Assembly: GCA_965371325.1 (NCBI GenBank)
Contig: CBDUXZ010000129.1
Span: 1 to 6,216 of the forward strand
Direction: 5' to 3'
Length of the DNA: 6,216 nucleotides
Source of the DNA: CBDUXZ01 sp965371325 [NCBI: uncultured bacterium]
Lineage (GTDB): Bacteria; JAUYMQ01
A model generated the notes under the pieces. It was not told where the DNA came from. It saw only the letters and a program-made list of their open reading frames with translations, and searched no databases. Shown piece by piece: positions 1-6,216 of the stretch. The translations under genes and the position numbers were made by a program. Every line of letters starts with the position of its first letter. Positions within the stretch are counted from its first letter, which is position 1.

Positions 1-650
1 CCCTCTTTGATTTCACTTTTCCCGCGGTTGCGCTAACGGCAGGGAGGAGGATTTCGCGGAGGCTGGCGGCCAACTTCGAAGAGACCAGAATCGAAGACCT
101 CTGGCTGAAGTTCTACTGTGTGTCCAGCAACCTGACCCGGGCCGGAGAGACGGTTCATCATGAGGGAACGGTCTGGAAGCGGGTCAGGGCGAGCATCTCA
201 CTCCCGGGAATCATGCCACCCGTTTTTCACGAGGGCGATCTGCTGGTGGACGGGGGCGTGACCAATAATCTTCCGGTCGATGTAATGCGCTCTGTTTGCG
301 GGGGAGGCACCGTCATCGCGGTCGACGTGTCACCCAAGGCGGGCAGCAGGCATCAGGCGCCCTTTGGAGAGTCGCTGTCCGGATGGCGCGTGATTTCAAA
401 CAGGGCCAATCCCTTCGCCGAATCCATGGATGTGCCCACTATCGCGAATGTGCTCATGCGGACAACCCTGCTTGGAAGCTCCGGCCGTCAGGCAGCGATG
501 ATCCAGCAGGCGGATCTGTGTATTGCTCCCGACTTGAGTGACTTCGGCCTCCTCGAGTTTCGCGCCTTCGAGAAGATAGAAGATGTCGGTTACCGGCACG
601 CCGTTGAGCAGCTAAAGGAATGGGCGGCCACCGGGGCGGCTACCCGGTGA
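1..650 (+). CDS. Patatin-like phospholipase, NTE (neuropathy target esterase) type, C-terminal part; 5' end outside window
   Basis: The reading frame is open from the first complete codon at position 3 to TGA at 648-650, giving 215 visible residues, so the gene starts left of the window. A GTG at 120 is internal: homology-like sequence continues upstream, with a D-x-T-x-P segment at visible residues 3-7 and the NTE-style IEDLW..F.CVSSNLT block at 30-45. Further on come a SISLPGIMPP stretch and the patatin catalytic DGG motif (Asp at visible residue 83, followed by GVTNNLPVD). The DGG Asp is the second member of the Ser-Asp dyad; the GxSxG nucleophile lies outside the window. The family hydrolyses (lyso)phospholipid acyl esters at membranes. 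Many bacterial NTE members carry N-terminal cyclic-nucleotide-binding domains, which cannot be checked here. An acyltransferase gene on the same strand follows after 73 bases, suggesting a lipid-turnover pair. Family assignment is firm; substrate is unknown. Confidence 0.9.
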   Translation, partial: LFDFTFPAVALTAGRRISRRLAANFEETRIEDLWLKFYCVSSNLTRAGETVHHEGTVWKRVRASISLPGIMPPVFHEGDLLVDGGVTNNLPVDVMRSVCGGGTVIAVDVSPKAGSRHQAPFGESLSGWRVISNRANPFAESMDVPTIANVLMRTTLLGSSGRQAAMIQQADLCIAPDLSDFGLLEFRAFEKIEDVGYRHAVEQLKEWAATGAATR

Positions 651-723: not shown

Positions 724-2040
724 ATGCACGCGTTCATTCGATTTGTCCTGGAAAGGCTCGTCCGCCTCTTCTACCACACGATTTCCGTTTCCGGCGCAGG
801 GCGGATTCCTGCAAGCGGGCCCGTTATCGTGGTGGCCAACCACCCGAATGGACTGATAGATCCCGTCATCCTGGGACTGGGGCTTGATCGGCCGGTGGCG
901 TTTCTGGCCAAGAGCACCTTTTTCAGCAATCCGGTCGCCCGGGTTGCGATGGACGCCTTTGGCGCCATTCCCGTCTTCCGCGCATCCAATGGCGCAGCCA
1001 CCGGGAAGAACGAAGAGACCTTTGCGCGCTGCCGGGCCCTACTTGCCCACCAAGGATGGGTGGCACTTTTTCCGGAGGGGACCACGCACGACGAAACGAC
1101 CCTCAAGCCCTTCAAGAGCGGCGCTGCGCGCATCGCGCTCAGCGCCCTCGAGGAGGCCGGCCCCGCGCTCGGGCTTCAGGTCCTTCCCGTCGGACTGATG
1201 TATGAAGATAAACAGGTTTTCCGCTCCCGCGTCGCGCTGGGCGTGGGAGAGCCTTTCGATCTTGCCGCATACCTCGATGAGTATAAGGAGAACCCGCGCG
1301 GGGCTGTTCAGAAGGTGACGGGGCTCATCCAGGAATCGCTCGGACAGGTCACGCTCGAGGCCGAGAACCACGCGTTGTGGCGCGGCTTCGTGGCTGTGGC
1401 GGCCTGGACCAACCCCGATGCGGCCGGCAACCTCGCCGCTCGGGAGGAACGCGCACGCGAGTTGGCCGCCGCTTACCACCGTCTCGTCGCGAGCGATCCC
1501 GATCGTGCCGACGAAGTGATCGCGTTCATTCGCCGCTTCGTTCGAATGCTTCAGGCGGTCGGGATCGACGATCCATTTCGGCTCGATACCGGTGACAAAC
1601 CGGGTGTTGCCGCGGTCACCGCGTCACTGTTGCAGCTTCTGCTGCTCCTGCCTCTGGCGCTCATCGGCGCCCTGTTCGGATGGTTGCCCTACCGGCTCGT
1701 ACGCCCCCTTGCCAACAAGCTGTCGGGGGGTAAGGTCGAGCTCATCGGAACAATCAAGCTGCTCCTCGGGGTGGTGATATTGACAATCTCCTACGTCTCC
1801 GAGGCGGCCCTCGCGGGAAACTGGCTCGGATGGCCGACGGGTTTGGCAACACTGGTCCTCGCGCCTTTGACGGGCCTGGTCGCCCTGCGCTTCGACGAGC
1901 GTCTTGCGCTACGGAGAGAGTCCCTCCGCGCCTACTGGCTCAGGGCAACGCAGGCGGGCGTGGCAGAGGAAATCAAGTCGCGCCGCCGGGAGTTATCCGA
2001 AACGGTGGAGCTCGCCCTCGGGAAAACTGCCGGCACATGA
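724..2040 (+). CDS. PlsC-superfamily glycerolipid acyltransferase, yeast Gat1/Gat2-like, with C-terminal membrane segments
   Basis: A 438-residue protein with the four acyltransferase blocks in order. The block I catalytic motif is NHPNGLIDP (His40, Asp46). A block II region runs AKSTFF (62-67) to GAIPVFRA (80-87), block III is FPEGTTHDE (116-124), and a proline-containing block (LPVGLMY, 154-160) is followed by FRSR (166-169). The His-Asp spacing is H-X5-D rather than the usual H-X4-D. Together with PEG..HD and FRSR this recalls the yeast glycerol-3-phosphate/dihydroxyacetone-phosphate acyltransferases Gat1/Gat2. The C-terminal half has three hydrophobic segments near 297-320, 341-363 and 366-389, so the enzyme is probably an integral inner-membrane protein. 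It should transfer acyl groups to a glycerolipid precursor; whether to sn-1 or sn-2 cannot be told. ATG at 724 is the first start that keeps the N-terminal helix; the ribosome binding site is weak. It lies 73 bases after the lipase gene on the same strand. Confidence 0.88.
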   Translation: MHAFIRFVLERLVRLFYHTISVSGAGRIPASGPVIVVANHPNGLIDPVILGLGLDRPVAFLAKSTFFSNPVARVAMDAFGAIPVFRASNGAATGKNEETFARCRALLAHQGWVALFPEGTTHDETTLKPFKSGAARIALSALEEAGPALGLQVLPVGLMYEDKQVFRSRVALGVGEPFDLAAYLDEYKENPRGAVQKVTGLIQESLGQVTLEAENHALWRGFVAVAAWTNPDAAGNLAAREERARELAAAYHRLVASDPDRADEVIAFIRRFVRMLQAVGIDDPFRLDTGDKPGVAAVTASLLQLLLLLPLALIGALFGWLPYRLVRPLANKLSGGKVELIGTIKLLLGVVILTISYVSEAALAGNWLGWPTGLATLVLAPLTGLVALRFDERLALRRESLRAYWLRATQAGVAEEIKSRRRELSETVELALGKTAGT

Positions 2041-2079: not shown

Positions 2080-2110
2080 CCGGCGAAAGCCGGGATGCCG
2101 GCGTCATCCC
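2080..2110. repeat. Cluster of overlapping inverted repeats (alternative hairpins) between the acyltransferase and cyclase genes
   Basis: Three arms follow each other: CCGGC (2080-2084), GCCGG (2089-2093) and CCGGC (2098-2102). The first and second form a perfect 5-bp stem with a GAAA (GNRA-type) loop. The second and third form a 5-bp stem with loop GATG. A third option pairs GGGATG (2092-2097) with CATCCC (2105-2110). The folds exclude one another. There is no U-tract, so it is not a standard terminator. The word pattern (CCGGCGAAAGCCGG plus GTCATCC) resembles small interspersed palindromic repeats I recall from many GC-rich Gram-negative genomes; only one copy is in this window. It overlaps the upstream-most ATG of the next gene. 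Confidence 0.6.
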
Positions 2111-3918
2111 TGGAACGTTATCTGTGTGATATGCTCGCGCCCATGAGCCGCCGCCTGCATCTCTCGCCCGAAGCCCGCACAACGATGCGCCATCTGCTTC
2201 ACCAGATGCGCACGCCCATCGGCCAGATTCTGGGCTACAGCGAGATGCTGGAGGAAGAGGCGCGTGAACGCGGCCAGGATGACTTCGTCCCGGATCTGGA
2301 GAAGATTCGGAACGCTGCGAACAAACTTCTGAGCTTCGTGACGGACACCTTCGAACCGGCCAGCGACCCGCCAGCTTCCCCGAAAACCACTGACAGCGCC
2401 GCCACTGCCGCGGCTCCCGCCGTGGCGCAGACAACGCCCCGGCCCGGGACCAGAATCGCTCCGCCATCCGGTGCGCCAGTGCCCGAACCTGCTCTGGGAT
2501 CCATTCTCGTAGTTGATGATGAGCCCGATAACCGTGATCTCCTTTCCCGTCGTCTCGAGCGGGCGGGACACAAAGTCGCGACCGCCGGGGAAGGGCGCGA
2601 AGCGCTCCATCTCATCGAAGCGAACGATTTCGACCTCATCCTGCTCGATGTCATGATGCCGGGCATGAACGGCTTTCAGGTGCTCGACGCCATTCGCAGT
2701 TCACGCTCGTTCTACGATCTACCGGTCATCATGGCGACTGCTTTGGGAGGAAGCCATGACACGGTGGAAGCGCTCCAGCGCGGCGCCAACGATTACGTGA
2801 CCAAGCCCTTTGACTTCCCCGTCGTCCTTGCCCGGGTGAGAACACAGCTCGCCCTGAAGCACGCCGCCCGGGAGATCACCGAACTCATCCAGCAGCTCGA
2901 AACCCGTAACACTTTCATCCGCCGCACCTTCGGACGCTATGTCTCCGACGAGGTCGTCTCGGCAGTCCTCGAAACCCCCGGCGGACTCGAGATCCGGGGC
3001 GAGAAGCGCCGTATTACCACGATGATGAGCGATGTTCGCGGCTTCACCGCGCTGACCGAATCTCTGACGGCGCAGCAGATCGTCTCCCTCCTGAACATCT
3101 ACCTGGGGCGAATGTCCGACGTGATCCAGCTTCATGGCGGCACGATCGAGGAGTTTATCGGCGACGGGATCATCGCCTTCTTCGGGGCGCCCATCACCTA
3201 CGACGATGACGCCGCGCGATCGGTCGCGGCTGCGCTCGCCATGCAACTCGCGATGGAGGGGGTGAATCAGCAGAACCGCAAGTCGGGCCTCCCGGAGATC
3301 GAGATGGGGATCGGGATTGCCACCGGTGAAGCAATCGTGGGGAACATCGGATCCGAAAGGCGTGCCATGTACGGCGCCATCGGGAGCACCGTGAACCTGG
3401 CGGCACGTATCGAGACCTACACTCTCGGCGGCGAAATCTACATCGACGATGAAACCCGGAACGAAATCGGCGACATTCTGAAAATGGACCGTGTGCAGGA
3501 AGTTCACCCGAAAGGTTTCGATGAGCCGATTAACATCCATCGTGTCATCGGAATCGGGGGACGGTACGATTTGGCGCTGCCCGACCAGGAAGAGGTGTTG
3601 ACAGATCTCGCCAGGGCGCTCTCAGTGCGGTTCGCCGTTGTGAAGGGGAAAAGCGTCGGAGGAAGCTCCCGGACGGGAGACATCCTGGCGGTTTCGAGGA
3701 GGAACGCAAGGCTTCGTTCATCCGGGCCGCTGCTCGAATCGTCGAACCTGCGGGTAGAAATTCTGGATGAGGCCGGCGAGCCGATCGCCGGCGCCTTTTA
3801 CGCGAAGGTTGTCGAGGGCGCGGAGGCGGAGGAAACCGGCCTCCTTCGCTTCACGGGGCGCTCTCCCGCGCTCAGCGCGGCGCTGGATGAGGCGCTGGGT
3901 GAAACGTCATCGGAGTGA
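2095..3918 (+). CDS. Multidomain signalling protein: HisKA-type H-box domain, receiver, class III nucleotide cyclase, PilZ-like tail
   Basis: 607 residues from ATG 2095. Residues 23-85 form a histidine-kinase dimerisation domain with H-box HQMRTP (His36) and second helix, but no ATPase domain follows; a Pro/Ala-rich linker (88-132) does. The receiver spans about 136-253 (acidic pair Asp141/Asp142, phospho-acceptor Asp185, Thr215, Lys237). A helical linker leads to the cyclase domain (about 305-485). It has both metal-binding Asp (Asp313 in SDVRGF, Asp357 in IGDG) and the transition-state pair Asn434/Arg438, so it looks active. Purine-selecting positions are Glu353 and Gly427, not the Lys and Asp/Thr/Ser of adenylyl cyclases. 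The tail (about 500-590) looks PilZ-like but lacks RxxxR and has AVSRRN where DxSxxG is expected, so c-di-GMP binding is doubtful. No membrane segment: cytoplasmic. ATG 2095 sits in a hairpin repeat; ATG 2131 or 2143 would also keep all domains. Converges with the response-regulator operon, 19 bases between stops. Confidence 0.9.
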   Translation: MPASSLERYLCDMLAPMSRRLHLSPEARTTMRHLLHQMRTPIGQILGYSEMLEEEARERGQDDFVPDLEKIRNAANKLLSFVTDTFEPASDPPASPKTTDSAATAAAPAVAQTTPRPGTRIAPPSGAPVPEPALGSILVVDDEPDNRDLLSRRLERAGHKVATAGEGREALHLIEANDFDLILLDVMMPGMNGFQVLDAIRSSRSFYDLPVIMATALGGSHDTVEALQRGANDYVTKPFDFPVVLARVRTQLALKHAAREITELIQQLETRNTFIRRTFGRYVSDEVVSAVLETPGGLEIRGEKRRITTMMSDVRGFTALTESLTAQQIVSLLNIYLGRMSDVIQLHGGTIEEFIGDGIIAFFGAPITYDDDAARSVAAALAMQLAMEGVNQQNRKSGLPEIEMGIGIATGEAIVGNIGSERRAMYGAIGSTVNLAARIETYTLGGEIYIDDETRNEIGDILKMDRVQEVHPKGFDEPINIHRVIGIGGRYDLALPDQEEVLTDLARALSVRFAVVKGKSVGGSSRTGDILAVSRRNARLRSSGPLLESSNLRVEILDEAGEPIAGAFYAKVVEGAEAEETGLLRFTGRSPALSAALDEALGETSSE

Positions 3919-3937: not shown

Positions 3938-4321
3938 TTATATTAGCCCTCCCCTCCCCCCCCCCAGGAGTTTCTCCATCTTCTCGAGAAGCCGCTTCAA
4001 CTCCACCGGCTTGGTGTCGAAGTCATCGCAACCCGCTTCCAGCGCCTTCTCGCGGTCCCCCTCCATCGCGTGCGCCGTGAGTGCGATAACCGGTATGGTC
4101 TTGGTGTCCGGATTTGCCTTCAGCTCCCGGGTCGCGTCCCAGCCATGCATCACCGGGAGACTCATGTCCATCAGAATGAGATCCGGACACTCCGACTTCG
4201 CCGAGACAACGCCCTCCGCCCCGTCCACGGCGGTGACCACATCGTAACCACGTTTGATGAGCCGCCGCGAGAGCATATCCCGGTTCAGCTCGTTGTCCTC
4301 GACCAGCAAAATCTTGGGCAT
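3938..4321 (-). CDS. Single-domain response regulator (DivK/CheY-like)
   Basis: A 127-residue stand-alone receiver. It starts KILLVEDNELNRDML (acidic Glu8/Asp9), has a phospho-acceptor Asp in LILMDMSLP (Asp52), Thr in IALTAHA and the Lys of TKPVE. The length is that of one receiver plus a short glycine-rich tail, with no output domain, so it must act by shuttling phosphate or by protein contact, as DivK, Spo0F or CheY do. It follows the hybrid kinase gene after 21 bases and has a strong ribosome binding site, so it is almost surely co-transcribed and is a likely phosphate partner of that kinase. The NRDMLSRRL segment is close to NRDLLSRRL in the receiver of the facing cyclase protein, suggesting related interaction surfaces. 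The C-terminal GGGRGGLI tail is encoded across a run of ten G and is probably disordered. The name DivK-like rests on architecture, not on proven orthology. Confidence 0.93.
   Translation of the reverse strand: MPKILLVEDNELNRDMLSRRLIKRGYDVVTAVDGAEGVVSAKSECPDLILMDMSLPVMHGWDATRELKANPDTKTIPVIALTAHAMEGDREKALEAGCDDFDTKPVELKRLLEKMEKLLGGGRGGLI
3956..3965. repeat. Homopolymer tract of ten C (ten G on the coding strand)
   Basis: Ten consecutive C on the plus strand, flanked by further short C runs (CCCT, CCCCT), lie in the last codons of the minus-strand response-regulator gene and encode its Gly-Gly-Gly stretch. Loss of one base would move the frame to a TAA that overlaps the present end, leaving a tail of similar length. 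Gain of one base would read past the normal stop into the convergent gene. It is also a place where sequencing error is likely. Confidence 0.85.
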
Positions 4322-4342: not shown

Positions 4343-6216
4343 TCAGGCCGACGCCTCGGGCCAGGCGAGCGTCCCGACCAAACTCCGCACCTCGTCAAGC
4401 AACTGCTGCTTTGTATAAGAGCTTTTCTCCAGAATCCGGACCACACTCCCCTCCAGTCGGGCGCGATCCTCGGCCGTAATATCCTTTGCCGTGACGATGA
4501 GCACGGGGATCTCCCGCCAGGCTTCGTTTGCACGGAGCCTGTCCACGCACTCGAACCCGTCCATCTCAGGCATCATGAGGTCCAGCAGAATGAGGTCGGG
4601 CACGGCCCTGGCAACGCACTCGAGCGCCACGCGCCCGTTCTCCGCCTCCACCACCTTCCACCCCGCACCCTCCACCCCCCGCCGCATCATCTCCCGGATG
4701 GCCGGGTCGTCGTCGACAATGAGCGCCGTCGCGCGGGCATTGTCGGAAGGCGCGTACTTGCGAAGCACCGCACCGAGTTGATCCCTGTCAATGGGCTTGG
4801 TCAGAAACCCGGAGGCCCCCAGGGTGTAGCCCATGTTCCGGTCGTCGGTCATGGTCACCAGGATGACCGGGATGTTCGCTACCGCCGGGTCGGCTTTGAG
4901 ACTGCCTAGTACCGCCCAGCCATCCATGTGCGGCATGAGAACGTCGAGGGTGATCAGGTCGGGATGGTGCTCGCGTGCCAGGCGCAGCCCCTCTTCCCCG
5001 CCCGCAGCCGGGATGACACGATACCCCTCCCCCTTCAGGAAACGGCAGATCAGGTCCAGGGCTGCCGGGTCGTCATCGATCACCAGCACCGTCGCGCCAT
5101 CCCGAAGCGACGCGGCAGTCCCCAAGCCAGGTGACGGCGTCATCTCGGCCTCCTGCGCAGCGGCGCTCGGCGTCCGGGCGGGCAGATGAATTTCGAAACA
5201 CGAGCCCTCCCCCGGCGCGCTCGTCACATCGATGCGCCCACCCAGCATCTCGCAGAACTTCTTCGTGATCGGAAGCCCCAATCCGGTGCCGCCGTACTCC
5301 CTCGTCGTCGATGCCTCCGCCTGGCCGAATTCCTCAAAGATCTTCCCGCGCTGCGCCTCATTCATACCGATCCCGGAATCCTTTACCCGAAAGTGAAGCC
5401 AGTCCCCTTCCCGCCCGCTTTCGCGTGTGACATCAAGACTGATCGTTCCATTCTTGGTGAACTTGCTCGCGTTGCTGAGGAGATTGAAGAGCATCTGGCG
5501 CAGCTTGGTCAGGTCGCAATGCATGGTGCCCAGCCCTTCGAGGGTACCGACCTCGAGGGTATTCTCGTTCTTGCTCATCATCGGCTTGACGGTGCCTTGC
5601 ACGCCCCGGACGGTTTCGGCCACGTCGCAGTCCTCCAGGTAGACCTCCATCTTCCCGGCCTCGATCTTGGAGAGATCGAGCACCCCGTTGATGAGAGTCA
5701 GCAGGTAGCGGCCGGAGCTGAGGATCTTGTCGAGATCGGGAAGGTACTCCTCGTTGTCGTCGTCCCGGGCTTCTTCCTGGAGGATCTCGCTGTAGCCGAT
5801 GATCGCGTTCAGCGGCGTGCGGAGCTCATGGCTCATGCTGGCGAGGAATTTGCTCTTCGCTCGATTGGCCTCGAGGGCTGCGGCCCGCGCGGCCTTCGCC
5901 TCTTCGTAATAGCGCGCGTTCCGGATTGCCGCCGAGAGCTGGGTTACATAGCGGCGAATAAGCTTGATTTCGTCCTGCGTCAGGTTGAATTGCTCGCGCG
6001 TGCTCCCAAAAAGGATGGCGCCGTCGACTTCGTTTTCGACCTCGATGGGGCAGAACAGGAGGGACCTTGCACCGCTGATTTTGTGAATACGCTTGTCGGA
6101 GGGGCTCATCATCGCCACTATCTCGGGTGAAACGTCGCCCACGAAAAAGGGCCTTCCCGACTTCACCACGTGGACGATACCGCTGTTCACCTCGTCCATG
6201 GGGATGTTCTTCTCAC
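4343..6216 (-). CDS. Hybrid sensor histidine kinase with GAF domain and two C-terminal receivers; 5' end outside window
   Basis: The frame is open to the right window edge: in-frame codons EKNIP precede the Met at 6199, and the GAF domain is already under way, so the true start is outside. Numbering from that Met: GAF remainder 1-95; coiled-coil-like, alanine-rich linker 96-118; HisKA with SHELRTPL (His124); ATPase domain with N-box NLLSNASKFT (Asn239, Asn243), G1 DSGIGM (274-279), F-box FEEFGQA and G2 GGTGLGL (303-309), all intact. Receiver 1 spans about 370-482 (Asp419, Thr449, Lys468). Receiver 2 spans about 490-608 (Asp540, Thr570), where Lys592 lies in ILEKSSY with no following Pro. No membrane segment is visible, so this is probably a cytoplasmic sensor with input through GAF. 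It heads an operon with the stand-alone receiver. Partners are probably that receiver and possibly the H-box/receiver of the facing cyclase gene. Confidence 0.94.
   Translation of the reverse strand, partial: EKNIPMDEVNSGIVHVVKSGRPFFVGDVSPEIVAMMSPSDKRIHKISGARSLLFCPIEVENEVDGAILFGSTREQFNLTQDEIKLIRRYVTQLSAAIRNARYYEEAKAARAAALEANRAKSKFLASMSHELRTPLNAIIGYSEILQEEARDDDNEEYLPDLDKILSSGRYLLTLINGVLDLSKIEAGKMEVYLEDCDVAETVRGVQGTVKPMMSKNENTLEVGTLEGLGTMHCDLTKLRQMLFNLLSNASKFTKNGTISLDVTRESGREGDWLHFRVKDSGIGMNEAQRGKIFEEFGQAEASTTREYGGTGLGLPITKKFCEMLGGRIDVTSAPGEGSCFEIHLPARTPSAAAQEAEMTPSPGLGTAASLRDGATVLVIDDDPAALDLICRFLKGEGYRVIPAAGGEEGLRLAREHHPDLITLDVLMPHMDGWAVLGSLKADPAVANIPVILVTMTDDRNMGYTLGASGFLTKPIDRDQLGAVLRKYAPSDNARATALIVDDDPAIREMMRRGVEGAGWKVVEAENGRVALECVARAVPDLILLDLMMPEMDGFECVDRLRANEAWREIPVLIVTAKDITAEDRARLEGSVVRILEKSSYTKQQLLDEVRSLVGTLAWPEASA

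Follow-up and report, generated by a model that had tools for sequence, protein, structure and literature searches.

The window analysed here, the whole 6,216-nucleotide stretch of contig CBDUXZ010000129.1 from an uncultured bacterium, carries a gene for a class III nucleotidyl cyclase of 607 residues. Genes for a single-domain response regulator and a hybrid histidine kinase lie convergent to it. The cyclase protein combines a lone DHp domain, a receiver, a linker, the catalytic domain and a C-terminal barrel. Judging from the sequence and the modelled fold, it very probably makes cyclic guanosine monophosphate (cGMP) rather than cyclic adenosine monophosphate (cAMP). Pfam matches HisKA, Response_reg and Guanylate_cyc in the protein, and the full-length model has a mean predicted local distance difference test score (pLDDT) of 82 and a predicted template modelling score (pTM) of 0.54. 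The start codon at 2095 is putative, with an alternative ATG at codon 17. The features of the gene are as follows.

2095..3918, forward strand: cyclase gene, 607 residues; lone DHp, receiver, linker, class III cyclase, C-terminal barrel (open reading frame list, Pfam, predicted model)
2167..2352, forward strand: lone DHp domain, residues 25-86, a helical hairpin without HATPase (Pfam HisKA, model)
2200-2202, forward strand: predicted phospho-acceptor His36 of the DHp
2503..2838, forward strand: receiver (REC) domain, residues 137-248 (Pfam Response_reg, E 2.4e-31)
2647-2649, forward strand: predicted phospho-Asp185 of the receiver
2929..2940, forward strand: FGRY motif in the helix leading into the cyclase domain, as in Cya2 (alignment with Cya2)
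3001..3555, forward strand: class III cyclase catalytic domain, residues 303-487 (Pfam Guanylate_cyc, identity to Cya2, fit to 2w01)
3151..3153, forward strand: Glu353, first purine-specifying residue, Lys in adenylyl cyclases (codon gag)
3373..3375, forward strand: Gly427, second purine-specifying residue (codon ggc)
3601..3897, forward strand: six-strand barrel plus helix, residues 503-601, predicted PilZ-like fold (model, Foldseek, VIA)

The catalytic domain and its substrate

A preliminary description of this DNA placed Glu353 three residues ahead of Gly356-Asp357 and Gly427 directly after Tyr426, and translation and codons confirm both. The metal-binding Asp313 and Asp357 and the catalytic Asn434 and Arg438 are likewise all present in the translation, as the description had stated. 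Together with a Guanylate_cyc (PF00211) match of 73.8 bits against a cut-off of 21.9, they identify a class III nucleotidyl cyclase. The description had proposed an alignment with the Synechocystis guanylyl cyclase Cya2. Over the catalytic domain this alignment gives 51% identity with no internal gap and puts Glu353 and Gly427 in the columns of Cya2's own Glu and Gly, so the residue register is not in doubt. The first specificity position therefore does not hold the Lys that would have spoken against the earlier claim, and the Lys with Asp or Thr of canonical adenylyl cyclases is replaced by a Glu-Gly pair within an alignable Cya2-like domain. The best matches among solved structures are 6fht, a phytochrome fused to the Cya2 domain, and 2w01, Cya2 itself. 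The modelled catalytic domain fits the 2w01 chains at 0.9-1.5 Å (target TM 0.95-0.97), ahead of CyaB, CyaC and RhGC. The proposal of an active enzyme with a non-adenylyl pocket is thus well supported at the level of sequence and model, since the nearest solved structure matches at both positions. Cya2, cited earlier as a precedent for Glu alone, is a stronger one than claimed, as it carries the whole Glu-Gly pair (passages of PMC4215837). The earlier caution about an automatic 'adenylate cyclase' label was also apt, because Cya2's own PDB entry bears the molecule name 'ADENYLATE CYCLASE'.

In the passages of PMC5995499 on Cya2 constructs, the wild type is specific for guanosine triphosphate (GTP) and E488K for adenosine triphosphate (ATP), each converting the other nucleotide to a small extent. 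From the structure of another guanylyl cyclase with GTP bound, the Glu appears to be the chief determinant, and the second residue to play a lesser part (part of PMC7384201). As read from the alignment, Gly at the second position is not decisive alone, because the nearest relatives carry Ala there; Ala is found in L097 as well as in L001. The window enzyme very probably acts as a guanylyl cyclase and turns GTP into cGMP. Part of a 2014 review names Cya2 as the sole confirmed bacterial guanylyl cyclase (PMC4284465), and a few further bacterial enzymes have been described since or alongside (passages of PMC3770947).

Relatives of the domain were collected in two rounds. The first, a scan of named genomes, yielded 27 loci with 25 Glu-Gly, one Glu-Ala and one Lys-Thr pair, a count that is biased because one of the two search patterns demanded Glu. 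The wider set came from a profile search of 12 genomes (55 matches, 30 readable as loci) and from 282, 369 and 297 genomes drawn from three groups. It holds 83 different domains, which are 86 less three fragment rows (L025, L026), and includes the first 27. Glu is present in 41 of 41 domains scoring above 300 bits, in 16 of 30 at 230-300 bits and in one of 12 below 230 bits, where Lys stands in 11 of 12; these score bands are not independent of the residue, since Glu-bearing rows went into the profile and the first 27 are part of the set. The four catalytic residues are intact in all 41 of the highest-scoring domains. In a tree of 85 rows (the 83 domains, Cya2 and CyaB), with a bootstrap that is not fully settled, the window enzyme and Cya2 share a clade of 72 rows (support 100/97) that has Glu in 58, another residue in 13 and Lys in one, the Lys-Ser row L090. 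Outside it lie 12 of the 13 Lys rows, namely the adenylyl cyclase CyaB and 11 others, so that the window enzyme groups with Cya2 and apart from the Lys-Thr adenylyl cyclases. Its closest neighbours are L001 (Myxococcota) and L058, both Glu-Ala (support 100/98); from its neighbour L001, the window may be of myxococcotal origin. Glu353, the clade and the Cya2 match speak against an ordinary adenylyl cyclase.

Several variants were seen among the relatives. Within the Cya2-type clade, L066, L068, L070 and L079 form a sub-branch in which the specificity positions hold Ala or Gly and then Ser and the catalytic residues are intact. L073 (1-2496, forward strand) has two Cya2-type cyclase domains in one chain, the second with Gly at the aligned first metal Asp, as if the two formed an internal pair. 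L228 (1649-3376, reverse strand) holds a degenerate DHp-receiver-cyclase adjoining a full-length regulator, in which the specificity positions read Ser and Lys and the catalytic Asn is replaced by Val; its genome also carries a copy with intact residues (L097).

The lone DHp domain and the linked regulator and kinase

The wider layout of lone DHp, receiver, barrel and linked kinase genes goes beyond the earlier description. The DHp region scores 30.7 bits against HisKA (Pfam cut-off 26.9). It is modelled as two helices, residues 25-58 and 62-86, with pLDDT 86-94 over residues 31-80 and lower values at the ends. Pfam finds no HATPase domain in the window cyclase, and there is none among the families matched in 22 aligned relatives. 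With no HATPase behind the DHp, a complete histidine kinase is ruled out. Among the 22, a DHp region is present in 19 (L010, L098 and L099 are without it) and Pfam recognises HisKA in 15. None of the 19 DHp-bearing rows has lost the acceptor His, and the receiver residues D141, D142, D185 and K237 are present in 22 of 22. L025, outside this alignment, also carries the acceptor His, which its search pattern itself required. In marine-type gammaproteobacterial relatives, the motif drifts from HxxRTP to HDLLNA with the His retained, suggesting that the His is used. In the part examined, the predicted hairpin and conserved acceptor His agree with a DHp-type phosphotransferase such as Spo0B or ChpT. 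The lone DHp is 40% identical over 52 residues to the DHp of the window's own hybrid kinase. The two convergent genes are as follows.

3938..4321, reverse strand: single-domain response regulator, 127 residues, predicted phospho-Asp52 (Pfam Response_reg)
4343..6214, reverse strand: hybrid histidine kinase, GAF, HisKA, HATPase, REC, REC (Pfam); 5' end beyond the window

The window regulator shares 46-75% identity with 12 regulators of related loci, and Asp52 is present in all 13 rows. Of 19 distinct DHp-receiver-cyclase loci, 17 have a close relative of it next to the cyclase or elsewhere nearby on the contig; full-length copies reach 198-211 bits, and no other receiver in these loci exceeds 120. 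The distance from the cyclase is about 0.9 kb in L117, one gene intervenes in L012, and L097 has only a regulator piece at the contig end. The two loci without a regulator are L025, which is cut by a contig end, and L125, which has a copy elsewhere in its genome (G837). Fourteen of the 19 loci hold a kinase like the window's, a count that takes in the window and, in L014, a cut copy; in gammaproteobacterial loci, no receiver of its own was detected in this kinase. At the scale of whole genomes, with 150 candidates scored in three of them, the regulator family at 190 bits or more is present as a single copy in 13 of 16 genomes. In G002, G011 and G012 the regulator score is at most 130 bits, and no DHp was detected in the Cya2-type cyclases examined there. 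The copy is on the cyclase contig in 11 of the 13 genomes. The exceptions are G091, with the copy beside a second, degenerate cyclase and a piece beside the intact one, and Synechocystis (G003), with the copy elsewhere.

The regulator family reaches beyond the cyclase. At E of 1e-42 or less it occurs in 34 of 282, 28 of 297 and 40 of 369 genomes drawn, and Cya2-type cyclases, at the threshold used, in 22, 4 and 8 of the same draws. The two occur together in 6, 3 and 6 genomes, where the totals would predict about 2.7, 0.4 and 0.9; these counts include three centre genomes by construction and a few donors of model rows, and for each genome they take in the best candidates. The idea that the regulator is specific to this cyclase alone was rejected, as it is commoner than Cya2-type cyclases and has other partners. 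Ten partner proteins were hand-picked from 92 loci and then domain-scanned. Five of them have a lone DHp before a receiver, with GGDEF as output in two, SpoIIE in one (L227, Synechocystis) and none recognised in two within the stretch examined. The other five are without a DHp in front (SpoIIE in two, a Ser/Thr kinase, HD and a kinase). Since the regulator also adjoins DHp-receiver proteins with GGDEF or SpoIIE outputs, the DHp appears to go with the relay rather than with the cyclase, and by domain content the DHp-receiver front end is common to several outputs.

Lone DHp-receiver front ends beside the regulator family were seen in L205, L222, L227, L198 and L203 by Pfam, and in L213 and L200 by an in-house profile and by eye. 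L198 has two DHp copies in one chain.

A proposed phosphorelay and its alternatives

We propose that a homodimeric Cya2-type enzyme converts GTP to cGMP, with Glu353 reading the guanine edge, and that its activity would be set by phosphorylation of its own receiver. The phosphate would most likely come from the neighbouring hybrid kinase, would then sit on the single-domain regulator or a receiver of the kinase, and would pass to His36 of the lone DHp and last to Asp185. We infer this direction and order, as well as an activating rather than inhibiting effect of phosphorylation. The lone DHp would work like the phosphotransferases Spo0B and ChpT, but fused to the output protein, and the C-terminal PilZ-like barrel may support catalysis, as the matching extension of Cya2 does. 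In the sporulation relay, the kinase, Spo0F, Spo0B and Spo0A are separate proteins; the proposed route copies this logic with the last two steps in one chain. A precedent for receiver phosphotransfer keeping a guanylyl cyclase active is the algal 2c-Cyclops, in which kinase-to-receiver transfer has this effect (passages of PMC6284317). We regard control by two-component phosphorylation of the receiver as a good deal more probable than its absence. The reading as a whole, a Cya2-type, receiver-controlled guanylyl cyclase that obtains phosphate from the kinase through the regulator or kinase receiver, His36 and Asp185, is somewhat less secure but still probable. The specific route from kinase to regulator to DHp His to receiver Asp is finely balanced.

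A number of observations weigh against this proposal. CyaG is said, by the title of a reference, to be an adenylyl cyclase and a possible ancestor of guanylyl cyclases. Glu is absent in 14 of the 30 mid-scoring relatives (230-300 bits), and one Glu-Gly domain, L056, is placed outside the Cya2 clade. Pocket residues alone are weak predictors of substrate, and the GTP preference of Cya2 has been ascribed to faster turnover, not tighter binding (part of the review PMC4284465). On the side of the relay, the DHp model for finding relatives was built from His-bearing sequences. Ten of the 19 loci counted supplied the regulator model, so that independent support comes from the other loci and the genome-wide view, and in the wider draw the regulator scores spread over 149-211 bits with no clean gap. 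A window-like kinase was not found in five of the 19 loci; one of the five, L097, has two kinases of other types. In addition, L010, L098 and L099 have receiver and cyclase without DHp, with the regulator 1.3-6.2 kb away, and Synechocystis has the regulator but a cyclase without DHp. Neither DHp nor regulator is therefore strictly tied to the other, and the DHp could be a remnant that serves docking or dimerisation.

The main alternative keeps the guanylyl cyclase, with the DHp serving not as a relay but as a docking and dimerisation platform for the phosphorylated regulator, much as DivK acts on the DHp domains of kinases, and with the kinase phosphorylating the receiver directly. The regulator may resemble DivK-type proteins, and DHp helices dimerise, which would suit a dimeric cyclase; the three loci without DHp nevertheless keep the regulator on the contig. 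Retention of the His in every DHp-bearing row through the drift to HDLLNA suggests instead that the His is used, and we consider this alternative unlikely, if worth keeping in mind. An adenylyl or dual-specificity cyclase despite Glu353 is more doubtful still. It could draw on the weakness of pocket residues as evidence and on a Crp-family gene beside three gammaproteobacterial relatives, which scores best against a model of the cAMP receptor CRP, at half its cut-off. The nearest characterised enzyme, Cya2, is however a guanylyl cyclase with both residues identical, and its constructs convert ATP only to a minor extent. That the protein is a catalytically weak or inactive signalling remnant seems very improbable: a relative beside the same regulator, L228, is indeed degenerate, with Ser, Lys and Val for Asn, but the window enzyme and all the domains above 300 bits retain the four catalytic residues.

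Known systems, the C-terminal barrel and neighbouring genes

Spo0B and ChpT offer a parallel to the phosphotransferase role proposed for the lone DHp, but each is a protein of its own and retains a degenerate ATPase-like half, whereas the window DHp stands alone and is fused to an output. The cyanobacterial CyaC is, like the window protein, a receiver-driven class III cyclase fused to two-component parts. CyaC makes cAMP and has a full kinase in the same chain; the window protein, in contrast, is without the ATPase half, its kinase is encoded separately, and the catalytic domains are 33-34% identical. Cya2 of Synechocystis PCC 6803 (PDB 2w01) is closest in its catalytic identity and Glu-Gly pair, in the FGRY motif, which passages of PMC5995499 mention, and in a homologous C-terminal extension (seen in L005). 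Ahead of the catalytic part, however, Cya2 carries a CHASE2 sensor and a membrane segment (same passages), where the window protein has the lone DHp and receiver. The opsin-kinase-receiver-guanylyl cyclase 2c-Cyclops of green algae shares the link from receiver phosphotransfer to cyclase activity, but it is eukaryotic, light-inhibited and a single chain with a complete kinase. In Xanthomonas campestris, passages of PMC3770947 link cGMP synthesis by XC_0250 to the gene of a GGDEF receptor, XC_0249, that binds cyclic nucleoside monophosphates (cNMP). An XC_0249-like layout occurs in L120 beside a relative of the window enzyme. Where the window enzyme keeps the catalytic Asn and Arg, XC_0250 has Leu and Ala, and the passages name no phosphorelay.

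The catalytic domain thus belongs to a known, Cya2 kind, and what is new is the DHp-receiver architecture with its gene linkage. Among the papers listed from the open-access literature searched, which leaves most subscription papers outside, no title or opening of an abstract describes a lone DHp-receiver guanylyl cyclase. As seen here in the genes, the wiring of kinase, regulator, DHp-receiver and cyclase appears in several bacterial groups. The window protein would bring a Cya2-type cyclase under the control of a two-component circuit that can be traced, and beside the enzyme some relatives carry candidate cyclic-nucleotide receptors. Both bear on how bacterial guanylyl cyclases are switched and what reads their product. 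More speculatively, an exchangeable phosphorelay cassette (kinase, regulator family and DHp-receiver adaptor) might drive cGMP synthesis in several phyla, often with a receptor next door, including a kinase-cNMP fusion, and with a repurposed PilZ fold as the extension. If true, Cya2-type enzymes would underlie a cGMP network in bacteria that is still largely unexplored and that includes a counterpart of cGMP-dependent protein kinase.

The C-terminal extension is predicted to adopt a PilZ fold. Residues 482-607 are modelled as a six-strand barrel plus helix with mean pLDDT 91. Foldseek matches 1-25 are PilZ or PilZ-containing entries, some of which we take to be PilZ where the titles do not say so; the best has E 5.7e-4, and four have E of 0.001 or less. 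VIA gives Z of about 8-12 for the barrel against PilZ entries. The cyclic di-GMP motif [DN]xSxxG is found in none of 19 rows aligned, and RxxxR in the first 45 residues of the extension in one (L026), not in the window. A C-terminal receptor for cyclic di-GMP was rejected by motif, as the canonical motifs are absent. The extension is common to Cya2-type relatives, including the Synechocystis salina enzyme (L005), and many gammaproteobacterial relatives are without it. In passages of a 2018 paper, the Cya2 extension is important for stimulating activity and is described as structurally uncharacterised (PMC5995499). No title or abstract opening among the open-access papers listed describes a PilZ fold for it, and our analysis offers a predicted fold for this part of Cya2.

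A search of 12 genomes for cNMP-binding domains gave matches close to the cyclase in several of them. A cNMP-binding open reading frame lies within 700 bp of the cyclase, or overlaps it, in 19 of 68 distinct loci, ten of them from closely related gammaproteobacteria; six duplicate rows were dropped from this set, not all of its cyclases bear Glu, and the profile was seeded from seven domains, most of them from the 19. The other 49 loci, including the window, have none within that distance, and no cyclic-nucleotide receptor was found in the window's 6.2 kb, which leaves out the front part of a cut patatin-like gene. By Pfam, Crp-type factors stand beside the cyclase in L008, L015, L018, L020 and L023, and the other such neighbours are a GGDEF fusion (L120), a sigma-54-type protein (L019) and two small proteins (L098). 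L230, from the same place as L228, has a large cNMP-binding protein with its other matches below cut-off. The assignments in L014, L016, L021, L024 and L025 come from the in-house profile only. Five further loci have, by Pfam, a Ser/Thr kinase fused to a cNMP-binding domain, each adjoining a cyclase of the Cya2-type clade.

L012, 5842-7209, reverse strand: kinase-cNMP fusion
L099, 8287-9900, reverse strand: kinase-cNMP fusion
L100, 8457-9995, forward strand: kinase-cNMP fusion
L104, 8588-10141, forward strand: kinase-cNMP fusion
L110, 4563-6578, forward strand: kinase-cNMP fusion

In their layout, these bacterial fusions resemble cGMP-dependent protein kinase. The cyclase of L104 is not Glu-bearing and has Asp-Ser (row L065). 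Passages of PMC1262709, on bacterial Ser/Thr kinases, do not name a cyclic-nucleotide domain, and one passage of PMC11032199, on the same subject, mentions it among kinase-associated domains.

Ahead of the cyclase gene, the window holds a patatin-like phospholipase gene (3-650, forward strand), truncated by the window edge, with RssA as its best NCBIfam match, below cut-off. Downstream of it lies an acyltransferase gene (724-2040, forward strand). In the 67 other loci compared (L028-L096 and L137-L228 were outside the comparison), the patatin-like protein has no match and the acyltransferase one weak match, so that the pair lies outside the module there. Plasmid and phage searches gave matches only below 60% identity. 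A scan of viral contigs did not recover the window itself and gave one Cya2-type cyclase, L234 (1-1656, forward strand), on an IMG/VR 'viral' contig of doubtful viral assignment. It is a Glu-Gly enzyme fused to a sensor that looks PAS-like by eye and, by the same inspection, bears a similar C-terminal extension.

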